A stretch of DNA of 64,000 bases from Aliidiomarina haloalkalitolerans (GTDB lineage: Bacteria; Pseudomonadota; Gammaproteobacteria; Enterobacterales; Alteromonadaceae): contig NZ_PIPI01000002.1 in assembly GCF_003987315.1 (NCBI RefSeq), positions 124,001 through 188,000 on the forward strand, given 5' to 3'. This document shows, piece by piece, positions 22,733 to 27,646 of the stretch; the stretch's first letter is position 1, and each line of letters begins with the position of its first letter. A program made the position numbers and the translations under genes. The notes under the pieces were generated by a model. It was given only the letters and a program-made list of their open reading frames with translations. It had not been told where the DNA came from and made no database searches.

Positions 22733-22809
<77 letters not shown>

Positions 22810-22818
22810 GTACAAAAG

Positions 22819-22843
22819 AAACCACCCTCGCGGTGGTTTTTTT
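22819..22843 (+). terminator. Intrinsic terminator after tRNA-Arg
   Basis: AAACCACC (22819-22826), a short loop, GGTGGTTT (22832-22839) and a run of T. Well placed ten bases after the CCA end. Confidence 0.85.
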
Positions 22844-22865
22844 GTGCTTGTGTGTCCGAAGGTGA

Positions 22866-22957
22866 GAACCTCTTCAGGTTCGACAAAACGGCAGGAAGCC
22901 GTTTTGGACGTGCGAGCAACGCGAGTGCGCCCGCAGGGTGAGCGCCATGGATGGCGC
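22866..22957 (+). other. Structured spacer between tRNA-Arg and its duplicated 3' end
   Basis: Three perfect hairpins in 92 bases: GAACCT-CTTC-AGGTTC (22866-22881), AAAACGGC-aggaa-GCCGTTTT (22885-22905) and GCGCCAT-GG-ATGGCGC (22942-22957). Open frames across it on both strands look like artefacts. It may be a structured RNA or a repeat-family insert; it lies after the terminator, so whether it is transcribed is unknown. Confidence 0.5.
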
Positions 22958-22962
22958 GAATC

Positions 22963-22981
22963 AATCCTCTCGGGCGCGCCA
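22963..22981 (+). repeat. 19-bp duplicate of the tRNA-Arg 3' end
   Basis: AATCCTCTCGGGCGCGCCA here is identical to the last 19 bases of the tRNA (22791-22809), including the CCA. The two copies are 172 bases apart start to start. Such copies mark integration sites at tRNA genes or rtT-type repeats like that of E. coli tyrT. Confidence 0.85.
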
Positions 22982-23016
22982 AAACGGCTGAGGCCCGATC
23001 TAATCCTTGGAAGTCA

Positions 23017-24330
23017 TCATCCGTGCAAAAATCGCGTAACTTTACCCAGACAAGTAAGTGTCCGCTCGGCGATTATTTCCCCGACCTCCTGATCAAAAAA
23101 CTCATTCGCTTCCCTGAGAGTCTTATTTAACGCTAACTCTATCTTTTCGTCTAAAGCAGTCATGATAGTTAGTGTTAGTTCCTCATCTATCCCCTGTTTT
23201 TTGCCATGCTCTGGCCAGTGTCTTGGTAGAATTTCGCTCCATTTGTAGTGGGTATTCTTGCTATGAACTTTCATTGCCATCTTTATTTTCTTTGGCTGGA
23301 TGTTCCCTTGCCCGAAATAGGGGTAAGCGCTCAACACATCATAGAAGGGCGTAAGTCGATACCCATTCTGATTGAGTGCAATACTGAAGTTCTTGCCATG
23401 CCCATCAATCGCGGCAAGCAACCAAAATACGATTTGCACCCGCAAAAATTCGAGCCTATCTTCATACGCGTTGCTTGAACCGGATAGCAAATCCATAACT
23501 TGCTGAGAGCTCGACCCACCCTTCTCTTCATATTTTGAGCCACTCACTTTCCCTAATGCCTGACAAATATCCTCCTGAGGAAGTCGGATAATAGCGTCTT
23601 CTTCGATTTTGCGATCAAAGCGCTCCACCACCAGTACCTTCTGGTCTTCAAATTGCTCAATGTTGCAGACGGCGACATTCATCCCCAAGTTTTTCATAAA
23701 CCTCTGGCAGAACCATTCGTTGTCTACACTCGAGGGTAAATCTATTCCTAGGCTTTCGTGATGAAGAATGGGTGGCTTGAATATATGTGTCGTTGGCGTC
23801 GAGCCGTGTGGTCGACACCACTTCCCATTCCACTGCGTGAGTGCGGTTTTTTCCTGAGCTCCAGCAAGAGAAATTCTGAAGTCGGAATCTGAGTGCATAC
23901 CCAGAATTTTTTCAAGGCGAGTTTCTCTAATCATTTGTGCCACTTCGTGTTCAGACAATGGCGTGAGTGACAGTGATGGCATTTCACCTGTCGCAGGCTC
24001 GTCTGTAAATGTAAGTGCACCGACACAGTCCTTTCCGACGCTAGCCAACAAATCGAAAGGTTTGGCGCTTTCTGCACCCAAGCGGTCTTTAATTTGCTCT
24101 CGGATAGCGGCTGAATCCGGCAGCAAATTATCAAAATAAGCATGAACAGCATCGTCCACTATTTCCGCACGTTGCATAGGTAAGCTGAGGGAGATAGCAC
24201 GAGACCCCTCCACTTCTAACCATTCTGGAGCGTACTTAAAGCTCATGCGCCCTTTCTTCAAGTACAACTTACCCACGGGAAATCCGTTCATGGAGCAATA
24301 GAGTGTTCGCGTATGTGATTTTCGGCCCAT
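23017..24330 (-). CDS. hipA: HipA-family serine/threonine kinase toxin
   Basis: 437 aa, nearly the length of E. coli HipA (440), whose known target is glutamyl-tRNA synthetase; phosphorylation there causes growth arrest and persistence. The layout is the same: an N-terminal subdomain with LPMQ-type and YFDNLLPDS segments, ISLAGAQEKTAL with the autophosphorylated Ser (154 here), VVERFDR, catalytic Asp309 in AAIDGHGKNFSI, and the Mg-binding Asp of FYDVLSAYP (331). All key residues are intact, so it should be an active kinase. The start overlaps the hipB stop (TAATG). The pair follows the tRNA 3'-end duplicate. Confidence 0.94.
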   Translation of the reverse strand: MGRKSHTRTLYCSMNGFPVGKLYLKKGRMSFKYAPEWLEVEGSRAISLSLPMQRAEIVDDAVHAYFDNLLPDSAAIREQIKDRLGAESAKPFDLLASVGKDCVGALTFTDEPATGEMPSLSLTPLSEHEVAQMIRETRLEKILGMHSDSDFRISLAGAQEKTALTQWNGKWCRPHGSTPTTHIFKPPILHHESLGIDLPSSVDNEWFCQRFMKNLGMNVAVCNIEQFEDQKVLVVERFDRKIEEDAIIRLPQEDICQALGKVSGSKYEEKGGSSSQQVMDLLSGSSNAYEDRLEFLRVQIVFWLLAAIDGHGKNFSIALNQNGYRLTPFYDVLSAYPYFGQGNIQPKKIKMAMKVHSKNTHYKWSEILPRHWPEHGKKQGIDEELTLTIMTALDEKIELALNKTLREANEFFDQEVGEIIAERTLTCLGKVTRFLHG

Positions 24331-24596
24331 TAGAACCCCAACGATTTTTTCGCGAGTGGCGTGTTCAGAGTGGCTACTTCATTCTTAAGCCGATTACCGA
24401 TACTAAATTCTAAATCAAGAGCCGCACATAGTTTGATAAGCATATCGACTGAGACCTTCTCAGGCTTCGTTTCATAGTTAGAAATATCTCTTTGATATAC
24501 GCCGATACGTAAAGCCAAATCGGCCTGAGTCCAGCTTTTGGACTTTCTGGTGTCTTTAATGATGGCGCCTAGATCTTTTGACGTGTTAATTTTCAT
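24330..24596 (-). CDS. hipB: HipB-family XRE antitoxin and autorepressor
   Basis: 88 aa, the same length as E. coli HipB, from the ATG at 24596, which has GAGG upstream; a longer frame to 24623 lacks a ribosome site and would run into operator DNA. The helix-turn-helix spans about residues 9-63 (WTQADLALRIGVYQRDISNYE). As in E. coli it should neutralise HipA and repress the operon through the three operator sites just upstream. The tail ends with KKSLGF. Confidence 0.93.
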   Translation of the reverse strand: MKINTSKDLGAIIKDTRKSKSWTQADLALRIGVYQRDISNYETKPEKVSVDMLIKLCAALDLEFSIGNRLKNEVATLNTPLAKKSLGF

Positions 24597-24606
24597 ATCA
24601 GCCTCG

Positions 24607-24624
24607 TATACCGAATTCTGCATA
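24607..24624 (-). promoter_or_regulatory. HipB operator site 3 (one mismatch)
   Basis: TATAC-N8-GCATA, one base off the inverted repeat of the other two sites. It lies 10 bases before the hipB start. Exactly 27 bases from the start of the next site. Confidence 0.6.
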
Positions 24625-24633
24625 AATATTAAA

Positions 24634-24651
24634 TATACGCATAAGTGTATA
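24634..24651 (-). promoter_or_regulatory. HipB operator site 2
   Basis: TATACGCATAAGTGTATA, a perfect TATAC-N8-GTATA inverted repeat with the same half-site length and spacing as the E. coli HipB operator TATCC-N8-GGATA. Confidence 0.8.
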
Positions 24652-24660
24652 AATCAATAT

Positions 24661-24678
24661 TATACATAAAGCAGTATA
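24661..24678 (-). promoter_or_regulatory. HipB operator site 1 overlapping the -10 box
   Basis: TATACATAAAGCAGTATA, a perfect TATAC-N8-GTATA inverted repeat. A minus-strand TATAAT (24659-24664) overlaps it, so a repressor bound here would block the promoter. No good -35 could be fixed. Confidence 0.8.
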
Positions 24679-24751
24679 AATCAAGTTTATCACTGATACT
24701 GACTGGCATTCATTGAAAACTTACATTGGTGAGATGACGCTAGAGTTCGTT

Positions 24752-25369
24752 CTAATATACTGCACCGTTAGAATATTTTTGATCACTCTGCTGTGCACAA
24801 GGCCCTTTCCACTGCTCTAGCTGCGCTTCGGTAACACCTTTTAATATGTACCTTCCTTTCGGGGTTAGAAATTCATACATAATAACCGTACCGTTGGTGA
24901 GCTCAATTTCACCGAACTCCTGATTGCCAATGGTAAGAACGTCACCGATACAGTAGAAGGCTTTTTCAATGCCCTTATCATCCCGCAGTTTTTCAGCATA
25001 ATATTCGAAAATTCCATCGAAGAAGCGATTAGTCGGAGAGAAAGCAACCCCAGGTGTGCATATTTGTGAGCGACTCGCGCATGCTTGATACCTAGTTGAT
25101 TCCGTCATTTGTCGCCAAACATAAACTGCGTCGAATGGTGTGTAGAAGTATGGACTCGAGTAATAATATAGGTCTATATACGGGGCAATTATGTAGTTTT
25201 TCCCTAGCACAGTTTGAAAAATCGTGTGACTTTCCAAAGTCACCGGTGCGAAACGTTGTTGCAGCCAAAATCGCGAACTATCCGCAAATTTAAACAGCAA
25301 ATTCGAAGCTAGAAATAGCAGATAAGCGATTACAACGAATGTCAAAAAAGGCGGTAACGGGTTCTTCAC
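24752..25369 (-). CDS. Membrane-anchored protein of unknown function
   Basis: 205 aa that I do not recognise. One N-terminal helix (FLTFVVIAYLLFLASNLLF, about residues 8-26) is followed by a soluble, probably periplasmic domain rich in Tyr and Phe (IDLYYYSSPYFYTPFDAVYVW) with four Cys (CASRSQIC, YCIG, PCAQQ), possibly disulphide-bonded. The second half could be beta-rich. It lies between hipB and the DnaJ-CTD-like gene, in a stretch without housekeeping genes. No ribosome site worth naming. Confidence 0.7.
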   Translation of the reverse strand: MKNPLPPFLTFVVIAYLLFLASNLLFKFADSSRFWLQQRFAPVTLESHTIFQTVLGKNYIIAPYIDLYYYSSPYFYTPFDAVYVWRQMTESTRYQACASRSQICTPGVAFSPTNRFFDGIFEYYAEKLRDDKGIEKAFYCIGDVLTIGNQEFGEIELTNGTVIMYEFLTPKGRYILKGVTEAQLEQWKGPCAQQSDQKYSNGAVY

Positions 25370-25619
25370 TTTATCAAGCTTCCTTGTGTTTCGTCCGCCA
25401 CGATCATCGAAGCCAGACTTGTCTGTTAGTTAAACTACACCAATGTTGGCATTATTCAAACTCCAAAGGATTCATGCACTCAGTGTGGATTATCAGAAGC
25501 ACAGCGTCTATGATTCCTTAGCTTGTGTCACCTGAATCTCTTCCGAGAGGTGTTTCACAAGAAATCGGCCCAGTGTGATGGCGGGCAATAGTCATTAACC
25601 GAAAAGTTACGAGGGTTCG

Positions 25620-26348
25620 ATGTCGATTCTAGGTGGTATCTGGAGGGCGGTTCTTTCTCTATTTCTGGTTGCAGCAACACTGAATTCTTGGCATCAGATT
25701 AGTTCTGAGCGAGAACTTGCTCATACCCAAATTGAAAAGTATCAACAACTTAAGACTAATTCTGTCGTTAAGCCAATCACGTTCAATTCGGAATATTTCT
25801 GGCGTGAAGTGTCTGACGGCCAAATCCGCTATGAGTTACATTTTGATTACCGTGACACACAAGGTCACGCACGCACGGGCATCGTTGCAACTTACTCGCT
25901 GCCGCAAGACTTTGATGACCAGCTTGTCCATTTCCTGAGCAACGATAGCCGCATTCATGCGCTCGACCTTGACCTGACCATTGCCGAAAAGACTGCTGAG
26001 TACGAAGAGAAAGTCAGTGATGCTTGGTTCAGTTTCGGGTTAATACTACTCATAACTTTGTTTTGTTTTGCGGGCATGTGGATGAGCCTCGGTCGCGTTC
26101 CGCGAACAGATTCAGACTTCCTCGCCCTTGATACTGAGCAAACGATAAAGTTACGCCGCAGCATAGCGCGTGCAGGTGGGAGTGTGCTTGTCACCACCCC
26201 GCGCGGCAAGCTGAGCTTGAAAATCCCGCCGGGTAGCTGCACTGGAAAGGTTCTACGTGTAAAAGGGCATGGGCACCAAAGCGATTTTGATGAGCGCGTG
26301 TTTGGTGATGCCTATTTTAAATTGCATGTGAGCCGCTGGCCCTGGTGA
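25620..26348 (+). CDS. Two-helix membrane protein with a DnaJ C-terminal-like domain
   Basis: 242 aa. Helix 1 (about 5-22), an extracytoplasmic loop of about 110 residues that resembles DUF3592 (a strand-rich FRYE-type layout with YELHFDYRDTQGHART), helix 2 (about 134-155), then a cytoplasmic tail. The tail, GGSVLVTTPRGKLSLKIPPG followed by GKVLRVKGHGH and GDAYFKLHV (about 188-238), reads like the second substrate-binding domain of DnaJ/CbpA. No J domain (HPD) or zinc finger is present. I infer a membrane-tethered client-binding or adaptor role; that is speculation. TGTCG follows an ACGAGGG ribosome site. Confidence 0.72.
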   Translation: MSILGGIWRAVLSLFLVAATLNSWHQISSERELAHTQIEKYQQLKTNSVVKPITFNSEYFWREVSDGQIRYELHFDYRDTQGHARTGIVATYSLPQDFDDQLVHFLSNDSRIHALDLDLTIAEKTAEYEEKVSDAWFSFGLILLITLFCFAGMWMSLGRVPRTDSDFLALDTEQTIKLRRSIARAGGSVLVTTPRGKLSLKIPPGSCTGKVLRVKGHGHQSDFDERVFGDAYFKLHVSRWPW

Positions 26349-26382
26349 TTGTTTTGACGCTGTTCAACAAACATAGCGCAAC

Positions 26383-26435
26383 AAAAAAGCCTCTCCTGAA
26401 TAATCCAACGCTGCATTTGTGGTTCTACTCAGGAG
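26383..26435 (-). terminator. Possible terminator of rhlE
   Basis: Read on the minus strand: CTCCTGA, a 29-base loop, TCAGGAG, then AGGC and six T. The loop is long, so efficiency is uncertain. Confidence 0.45.
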
Positions 26436-26446
26436 ATTACGAGAAA

Positions 26447-27646
26447 CTAAGCCCGTGGCTTGCGCCGCGGTGGCCGTTGCGCTTTTACCGGGGCTGGTGT
26501 TTTACCATTTAGCTCAACTTTCGCGAATCCGTCGAGTTGACGGCGCTCAATGGCCTGCCCAATTAGTTTTTCAATGGCTTTGAGCGCTTTAAATTCTTCG
26601 TCGGTGACTAATGAGATTGCATGGCCAACTTGCCCTGCGCGGCCGGTGCGGCCAATCCGATGTACATAGTCTTCGGCAACTTGCGGCAAGTCATAGTTAA
26701 TCACATACGGTAGTTTTTCAATATCGAGTCCGCGTGCGGCGATATCAGTAGCCACCAACACCTGTACATTACCCGCTTTGAAATCAGACAATGCTTTCGT
26801 GCGCGCGCCTTGGCTTTTGTTGCCATGAATGGCTGCGGCTAAAAAGCCGTCTTTATCAAGCTGTTTTACCAACCGGTTTGCGCCGTGTTTGGTGCGCGAA
26901 AAGACGATGACCTGTGGGAGATTCAAATTGCGCAGTAACTGCATGAGCATGCGCGGTTTTTCACTTTTCTGCGCAGCATACATAATCTGTTCAATTCGTT
27001 CCGCAGTTGTATTCGGTGGTGCCACGGAAATTTCGACTGGGCTATTTACTAAACTTTTTGCCAAGGTTCGAATGTCATTCGAAAACGTTGCCGAGAACAT
27101 TAAAGTTTGTCGCTTGGCTGGCAGAAACTTAATAATTTTCTTAATGTCGTGAATAAAACCCATGTCGAGCATGCGGTCTGCTTCGTCGAGCACTAACATC
27201 TCAAGGTTCGGGAAGCGAATGGCATTTTGCTGGTATAAGTCCAACAATCGCCCAGGTGTGGCCACGAGGATATCAACGCCTTTGCGCAGCTTCATCATTT
27301 GCGGGTTGATTTTCACGCCACCAAAAACCACTGCATAATTGAGCGGTAAATCGGCACCATAAGTGGCAACGCTCTCGCCGACTTGGGCAGCGAGCTCACG
27401 CGTTGGGGTTAAGATAAGAACCCGTGCTGTGTTGGCTTTCGCTCGCTCGCCATCTTTCAACATTTCTAAAATCGGTAACGTAAAACCAGCTGTTTTTCCT
27501 GTCCCTGTTTGCGCGGCAGCCATTACATCATTGCCTGCAAGTACTGCAGGAATGGCTTGGGCTTGAATGGGTGTAGGTTCGATATAACCTTGGCGGGTCA
27601 GGGCAGTAAGAATTTCTGGGCAAAGTCCGAGTTCAGCAAAAGTCAT
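26447..27646 (-). CDS. rhlE: DEAD-box RNA helicase RhlE
   Basis: 399 aa. The helicase core is complete: the Q motif with [32 protein letters not shown] (in [13 protein letters not shown]), SATF, then [20 protein letters not shown] and [10 protein letters not shown] in domain 2. RhlE-type features are [19 protein letters not shown] at the start and a short basic C-terminus (RPPRRKPRA). It unwinds RNA in ribosome assembly or cold adaptation. The ribosome site is weak. Confidence 0.9.

Follow-up and report, generated by a model that had tools for sequence, protein, structure and literature searches.

A hairpin-rich unit behind tRNA-Arg very probably belongs with E. coli RtT to a widespread family of tRNA-linked RNAs

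We identified, behind a tRNA-Arg gene in the window (the whole stretch of DNA analysed, 64,000 nucleotides), a hairpin-rich unit of about 100 bases that is followed by a perfect repeat of the tRNA's 19 terminal bases. Judged by its covariance-model matches, the unit is one of a large structured-RNA family located behind tRNA genes in this class and in at least one other class of the phylum, and the E. coli RtT/RttR RNA of the tyrT operon is a divergent member of this family. The best explanation, to which we assign a probability of roughly 45%, is a tRNA-linked RtT-family RNA that would be released by read-through and would titrate CsrA.

Layout and fold of the locus

The features of the locus are listed below, with their coordinates in the window.

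22733-22809, plus strand: tRNA-Arg(CCG), CCA encoded (ARAGORN; Rfam tRNA 69.3 bits)
22791-22809, plus strand: last 19 bases of tRNA-Arg, AATCCTCTCGGGCGCGCCA, the source of the copy (sequence comparison)
22819-22843, plus strand: terminator-like stem-loop with T run, between tRNA-Arg and the unit (sequence, RNA fold)
22850-22862, plus strand: left arm GTGTGTCCGAAGG, antisense in part to the 3' end of the tRNA; can pair with the copy (fold)
22861-22962, plus strand: unit core, match to covariance model R1, GGTGAGAACCT...GGTTCGAC...GCGAATC (99.1 bits, the window sequence being one of the 12 training rows)
22867-22880: hairpin AACCT/AGGTT
22884-22906, plus strand: hairpin 1, CAAAACGGC-AGGAA-GCCGTTTTG, loop containing GGA (fold)
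22928-22940, plus strand: hairpin 3, CGCCC-GCA-GGGTG (fold)
22942-22957, plus strand: hairpin 4, GCGCC-AUGGAU-GGCGC, hexaloop with GGA (fold)
22963-22981, plus strand: exact 19-base copy of the tRNA-Arg 3' end, AATCCTCTCGGGCGCGCCA
23017-24330, minus strand: hipA (HipA_C 174 bits, Couple_hipA 88 bits)
24330-24623, minus strand: hipB (HTH_3)

The order is therefore tRNA-Arg, T-run stem-loop, unit, tail copy and then hipA and hipB on the minus strand, with 35 bases from the tail copy to the hipA stop. The source of the copy corresponds to positions 58-76 of tRNA-Arg by our own count, from the T-loop to CCA. An earlier note on this DNA had reported an exact recurrence of these 19 bases 172 bases downstream, and this is confirmed: the two AATCCTCTCGGGCGCGCCA copies are identical, lie 172 bases apart from start to start with 153 bases between them, and have a negligible probability of arising by chance. 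No further copy with up to 4 mismatches was found on either strand of the window. The stem of the terminator-like hairpin spans 22819-22839, and in a pattern scan it was detected on the minus strand alone.

The hairpins noted earlier between the tail copies are present, but the number given, three, was too low. Two shorter hairpins lie between hairpin 1 and hairpin 4, and the 85-base core (22878-22962) adopts a closed four-hairpin fold, closed by GUUC/GAAU. As RNA, the stretch 22842-22981 folds with z of -4.4 on the plus and -3.6 on the minus strand, and the core alone with z of -3.0 and -4.5, none of 200 shuffles being as stable on either strand in either case; the fold is strong on both strands, and thus energy alone cannot tell the strand. 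When 22842-22981 is folded by itself, the left arm pairs otherwise than with the copy. R1 detects a single unit in the window and no tandem array. The motif AAAACGGC, which sits in the 5' arm of hairpin 1, occurs again, as the earlier note had described, directly behind the tail copy (22981-22988); there it overlaps the last A of the copy and is possibly the remnant of a next unit.

Distribution of the family and its linkage to tRNA genes

The covariance model R1 was built from 12 units, E. coli not among them. In the order it matched 154 of 394 genomes (E ≤0.01), in the class 166 of 369 (E ≤0.001), and in a draw from the phylum 83 of 299, 59 of these 83 lying outside the window's class and mostly under one family label (f220). 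The earlier suggestion that the spacer might recur after other tRNA genes is borne out, with one clear R1 match in the window's own genome and many in other genomes; copy numbers are lower bounds, as at most 10-14 candidates per genome were scored and the best matches of each search listed.

The loci that we fetched hold 343 R1 matches. More than half (191) lie less than 250 nt behind a tRNA on the same strand, 34 at 250-1500 nt and 6 farther away, while for 87 no tRNA was found upstream in more than 600 nt of available sequence, and for 25 none in a short flank. The 191 closely preceding tRNAs are chiefly Ser (73), Arg (46), Lys (23), Glu (19) and Gln (18), with a few Pro, Tyr, Val, Ala and Trp. 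We counted 57 tandem arrays, a number that includes repeats from overlapping loci (L087/L134, L107/L197); their spacing is mostly 160-190 bases, and the longest comprises nine units at 168 bases.

A search with the combined sequence of tRNA and unit returned 30 loci. R1 was run on 15 of the 24 inspected and matched 11, nine of which follow an intact tRNA-Arg(CCG) (the window genome, G006, G015, G032, G046, G030, G020, G026 and G031). The remaining two, in G001 and G012, lie behind a displaced tRNA 3' part, at the far end of stretches of about 36 and 29 kb that follow the tRNA and have integrase matches. A 19-base pattern gave 24 stretches in genome contigs, with a tRNA recognised by ARAGORN in five and most others taken as chance, and an exact 38-base pattern gave no match in viral contigs. 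In the window's own genome, a related unit behind tRNA-Gly (L002:1348-1620) repeats both part of the tRNA-Gly end and a terminator-like stem, and its central hairpins match R1 weakly on the opposite strand.

Among the alternatives to an RNA with a host function, the one that survives best is a selfish hairpin, a REP- or MITE-like non-autonomous DNA element that thrives behind tRNAs and captures the tRNA tail with each insertion or expansion there; we regard this as rather unlikely. The 87 matches with no upstream tRNA and the 57 arrays speak for it, as does a core-only match (model positions 22-91) inside an hsdM gene, between the HsdM_N and N6_Mtase parts. This core (L022:204-271) lacks a tRNA tail and has the same flanks as another (L012:1521-1588; domains checked in L022), suggesting that the core is apparently capable of independent movement. 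Genome G540 has at least 11 matches, seven of those listed having nearly equal scores on one contig, and the four loci inspected there (L246-L249) share similar ends and have no tRNA near, perhaps representing a dispersed repeat form of the family. An rtT-like sequence inside BIMEs has been reported, according to excerpts of PMC2965389. Against this reading, several genera have the unit at the same tRNA, and the covariation of the unit points to RNA, as set out below. The unit resembles REPs and BIMEs in being hairpin-rich, partly dispersed and, in the same excerpts, overlapping with rtT; it differs, in a comparison made by dispersal only, in that more than half of its matches are tRNA-linked, and in its tail copy and multi-hairpin RNA consensus.

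Covariation of the stems

Returning to the reading as an RNA, we found that 95.1% of stem cells pair in two alignments of the family, and that 709 of 3114 and 642 of 3075 cells have changed on both sides, numbers reached by none of 500 shuffles each. Alignment A4 took matches at E ≤0.01, and A2 and A3 at 0.001. A control with slid partners gave nothing comparable. G-U cells outnumber C-A cells by 625 to 62, and by 210 to 37 outside the closing helix, although both counts lean that way because the alignments were fitted to the model structure, which credits G-U over C-A. The G-U excess points to an RNA of the tRNA strand, and we consider it likely that the unit acts as RNA. Excerpts of two papers report expression of relatives, namely RtT-family RNAs with Northern signals in A. 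pleuropneumoniae, there upstream of tRNA genes (PMC4986893), and an RtT sRNA of Thioalkalivibrio whose level rises in the cold (PMC8092127).

Relation to E. coli RtT

The resemblance to the rtT repeat that had been drawn from layout holds as homology: R1, which was built without E. coli, finds three units of the E. coli tyrT operon (E 0.0017-0.0077), and the Rfam RtT model (RF00391) in turn passes units that R1 had found. The Rfam model scores four E. coli tyrT-operon units at 132.9-137.5 bits and exceeds its cut-off on L077 (53.1), L177 (55.1 and 50.3) and L240 (51.0), that is on 3 of 39 loci tested apart from E. coli. Both loops contain GGA in L077 and L240; in L177, the two units above the cut-off contain it in hairpin 4 and not in hairpin 1. 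On the window unit the model reaches 15.1 bits vs a cut-off of 45, with the whole model aligned and the motifs in order. The order GATGAGAACC / GGTTCGA / CCCG.AGGG / AATCC is kept in the window unit, which reads GGTGAGAACC. The window unit and RtT are thus very probably of the same family; as far as the models reach, the window unit lies outside RtT as Rfam bounds it and is linked to it through shared relatives, and the Rfam RtT covers a small part of the wider family.

Like RtT/RttR, the window unit lies behind a tRNA, belongs to a pattern of units of about 175 bases with GATGAGAA...GGTTCGA followed by hairpins, closes with the 19 terminal tRNA bases, and has a left segment that pairs with that end (E. 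coli control L065). Unlike it, the window unit follows tRNA-Arg, is single, stands behind a terminator-like stem and has GGA loops. RtT was described in 1991 by Bosl and Kersten, as cited in the part of PMC4986893 that we drew on. The wider family would explain hairpin units behind many tRNAs that are beyond the reach of the Rfam RtT model. To our knowledge, RtT is still without a settled function.

The tail copy and the left arm match the adjacent tRNA

We compared the ends of 212 distinct unit sequences that lie no more than 1500 nt from a tRNA on the same strand (of 214 that qualified, two were left out for short flanks). At least 15 of the 19 tail bases of the adjacent tRNA are carried by 129 of these units, and all 19 by 75. 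Tails of tRNAs for other amino acids reached 15 of 19 in 81 of 4240 trials; for different tRNAs that carry the same amino acid, the count was 1598 of 4180. Conversely, where fetched loci have a tail copy within 350 bases, an R1 unit lies in between in 82 of 87 cases; the five others include the window's own locus (L001), which stood outside the R1 set, and L218, which looks like a unit. In two loci from two genera (L061, L063) the tRNA has the form CTATCGGGTGCGCCA and the copy has the same form, which suggests that tRNA and copy may evolve in concert. The tail copy is part of the design of the unit and not a scar.

The left arm, defined as the stretch before GATGAGAACC, is likewise fitted to its own tRNA. 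Its duplex with the 3' end of its own tRNA is strictly the best of 21 in 122 of 212 units, where about 10 are expected, with an energy of -15.3 kcal/mol to the own tail vs -10.7 to others; in the window, the duplex of GTGTGTCCGAAGG reaches -20.6 kcal/mol. Against the copy the values are -14.3 for the own and -10.8 for controls, and 53 of 212 units pair better with their own copy than with any of the 30 controls. In the 83 units with a decayed copy, the left arm retains -15.2 against the tRNA tail vs -12.1 against the copy. Changes in the left arm comprise 28 wobble and 20 non-wobble transitions, an excess too weak to serve as proof of RNA pairing, and we rejected it as such. We also considered whether the left arm derives from the 5' strand of the tRNA acceptor stem: six of 35 units with a clear match to that strand also carry the exact complement of positions 73-76. 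The left arm may have originated as an antisense or as a minihelix, both being candidates.

These fits raise a second alternative, in which the left arm pairs with the 3' end of the tRNA precursor and the sense copy competes for it, so that the maturation of the tRNA or the stringent response would be adjusted, a role that has been proposed for E. coli RtT. The preference for the own tRNA, even where the copy has decayed, is as this antisense control would have it. The arm is however weak in many units, for example -8.7 for tRNA-Lys vs -6.0 for other tails, and the pairing could be a leftover of the unit's origin, and we consider such control quite unlikely.

GGA loops and a possible link to CsrA

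The reading that we prefer, a read-through RNA titrating CsrA, draws on the loops of hairpins 1 and 4. GGA occurs in the loop of hairpin 1 in 182 and of hairpin 4 in 174 of 192 cluster representatives (k-mer clusters of 307 distinct units), while the stems vary; loop shuffles gave 24% and 28%, respectively. Both loops keep GGA in 172 of the 192, an upper estimate inflated by how the units were found, as the loci were mostly fetched for a high R1 score among the best matches listed. GGA is rarer in low-scoring units: of the 37 matches below 45 bits, two were cut off, and the other 35 had it in 22 and 16 cases, which indicates that the rate is inflated by model bias. The commonest loops of hairpin 4 are AGGAT, AGGGAT, ATGGAT and AGGAC, with a closing pair that is mostly C-G. 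Both loops contain GGA in 92 of 123 units with a tRNA and a good copy, in 68 of 82 with a tRNA and a poor copy and in 90 of 102 without a tRNA; GGA is as common without a tRNA, and thus the loops are independent of the tRNA context. The E. coli units have GAA/GCA or other loops and not GGA, so that CsrA binding cannot be the function of the whole family.

The consensus of CsrA ligands from SELEX is RUACARGGAUGU; of 55 ligands, 51 had GGA in a hairpin loop, usually a hexaloop, and most stems had no more than four pairs, as given in excerpts of PMC7652899. Compared with this consensus, hairpin 4 of the window fits 7 of 8 positions of CARGGAUG and 7 of the full 12, with U for R and with ACA and the final GU missing, and in hairpin 1, which has a stem of nine pairs, GGA alone fits. 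The window unit is like CsrB, CsrC and RsmX, Y, Z and W in its GGA-bearing hairpin loops, which include a hexaloop with a closing C-G pair; it differs in its position behind a tRNA, in having two GGA hairpins per unit, in the partial fit to the consensus and in scoring above cut-off with none of the Rfam Csr/Rsm families (RsmW 16.4 vs 52, RsmY 12.4 vs 57). Because the loop fit is partial, the prediction that the unit binds CsrA is a tentative one, which we rate as less likely than not.

Bacteria of this kind almost all have csrA. We found it in 64 of 65 unit-bearing genomes of a hand-picked set, the search in genome G860 finding none, and this is weak evidence since the gene is near-universal. 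Transcription of the unit is a further consideration. In 89 of 146 cases, among them the locus in the window, a T run separates the tRNA from the first unit, and a scan for promoter-like sites between tRNA and unit flagged none, so that read-through must be assumed. A literature search turned up no paper that links RtT with CsrA among the texts and excerpts it returned, and the part of PMC4986893 available mentions CsrA once, in its introduction.

We propose the following mechanism. The unit would be transcribed by read-through from the tRNA promoter, and the tRNA-processing machinery would trim it at its tRNA-like CCA end. The two GGA hairpins could then bind and titrate CsrA/RsmA, coupling tRNA transcription, and with it growth rate and stringent control, to the Csr network. 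Recombination with the tRNA may keep the copy identical to it, and as a side effect the copy might give tRNA-specific islands, here perhaps the hipBA cassette, a second landing site. CsrA titration is our best guess for the members that bear GGA. If it is correct, each read-through tRNA transcript would release GGA hairpins and so tie tRNA synthesis to the Csr network. The broader proposition that RtT, rather than being a peculiarity of enterics, is just one tip of a widely distributed family of CsrA sponges coupled to tRNAs, the E. coli version having lost its GGA loops, appears to us unlikely. Once RtT is viewed as a widespread RNA family with covarying stems and GGA loops, CsrA binding becomes cheaply testable.

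hipBA and insertions at the tail copy

The 3' ends of tRNA genes are classic attachment cores. Two alternatives build on this role, and the evidence on them comes chiefly from 16 congeners, in 13 of which another sequence, island-like by our own reading, stands directly at the full tRNA-Arg.

In G001, a sequence beginning with TCAAAGGC follows the tRNA, and the tRNA 3' part, a terminator-like stem, the unit and the copy are located about 36 kb further on. Behind that copy TCAAAGGC also opens a second element, which extends for 3 kb and terminates in a longer 3' part of tRNA-Arg. This cassette (L270:8932-11970) contains HipA and HipB genes and one gene without a Pfam match, and a search for an integrase of its own gave no match. 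The G001 junctions, as read from their sequence, are those expected after insertion into the 19-base copy. G006 has the same left junction, with TCAAAGGC behind its copy. It is plausible that the hipBA genes of the window likewise arrived through the copy. The earlier idea that hipBA was delivered via an attachment site has some merit in view of the G001 cassette, which lies exactly at a copy, but the window has no right-hand site, and a short-word BLAST search for a third copy of the tail core bounding the hipBA cargo found none.

The first of the two alternatives sees the copy as a decoy: selection would keep a spare tRNA 3' end so that islands spare the real tRNA. In its favour, TCAAAGGC, which stands behind the tRNA CCA in several congeners, follows the copy in G001 and G006, and the right end of the G001 cassette is a tRNA part longer than the 19-base copy, as integration into the copy predicts. 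Protection would however bring little gain, since tyrosine integrases restore the tRNA anyway, and the conserved hairpins and GGA loops are left unexplained. The full tRNA is occupied in the 13 congeners mentioned. The junction is known from two genomes only, in one of which (G006) the right end was not found within 19 kb, and the genes behind the G006 copy look to us like a potassium-transport operon. Overall, we judge a decoy to be very unlikely.

The second alternative, that the unit itself is the remains of an integrated element, perhaps the carrier of hipBA, with the copy as its right attachment site, is highly improbable, and as a pure integration scar it was rejected, because related units follow many tRNAs, each with the tail of its own tRNA, and stand behind tRNA-Arg in other genera too. 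It would account for the G001 cassette and for the HipA homologues near tRNA-Arg in five congeners (G001, G004, G008, G011 and G016; 38-42% identical to that of the window in G001, G004, G008 and G016). It would also fit the HipA_C matches 5-10 kb away in G006, G007 and G015, and the stretch 22985-26450 of the window, up to a helicase gene, which has no DNA match in the 16 congeners except for hipA stretches in G009 and G010. Against it, hipBA lies beyond the copy and not between tRNA and copy, and none of the five integrase matches of the window genome is on the window's contig. Comparison with congeners that lack hipBA at the locus, as the earlier note had proposed, was partly informative: unit and copy stand in G006 and G015 with no adjoining hipBA, but the hipA search, which covered congeners, gave HipA_C matches about 9.6 and 5.4 kb downstream of the copy.

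The locus resembles tRNA genomic islands, as described in excerpts on Islander (PMC4383910) and on a HipAB island in Shewanella (PMC8978831), in its copy of a tRNA 3' end with hipBA beside it, and differs from them in that the unit is without genes of its own, occurs at many tRNAs and in many genomes, and has hipBA beyond the copy. Copies of tRNA ends can be mistaken for island scars and can themselves be landing sites. Finally, in five congeners (L274, L276, L278, L283 and L285) we observed a truncated tRNA-Arg, of approximately bases 1-50, about 94 bases upstream of the full gene, as if the complete tRNA had been brought by an island.
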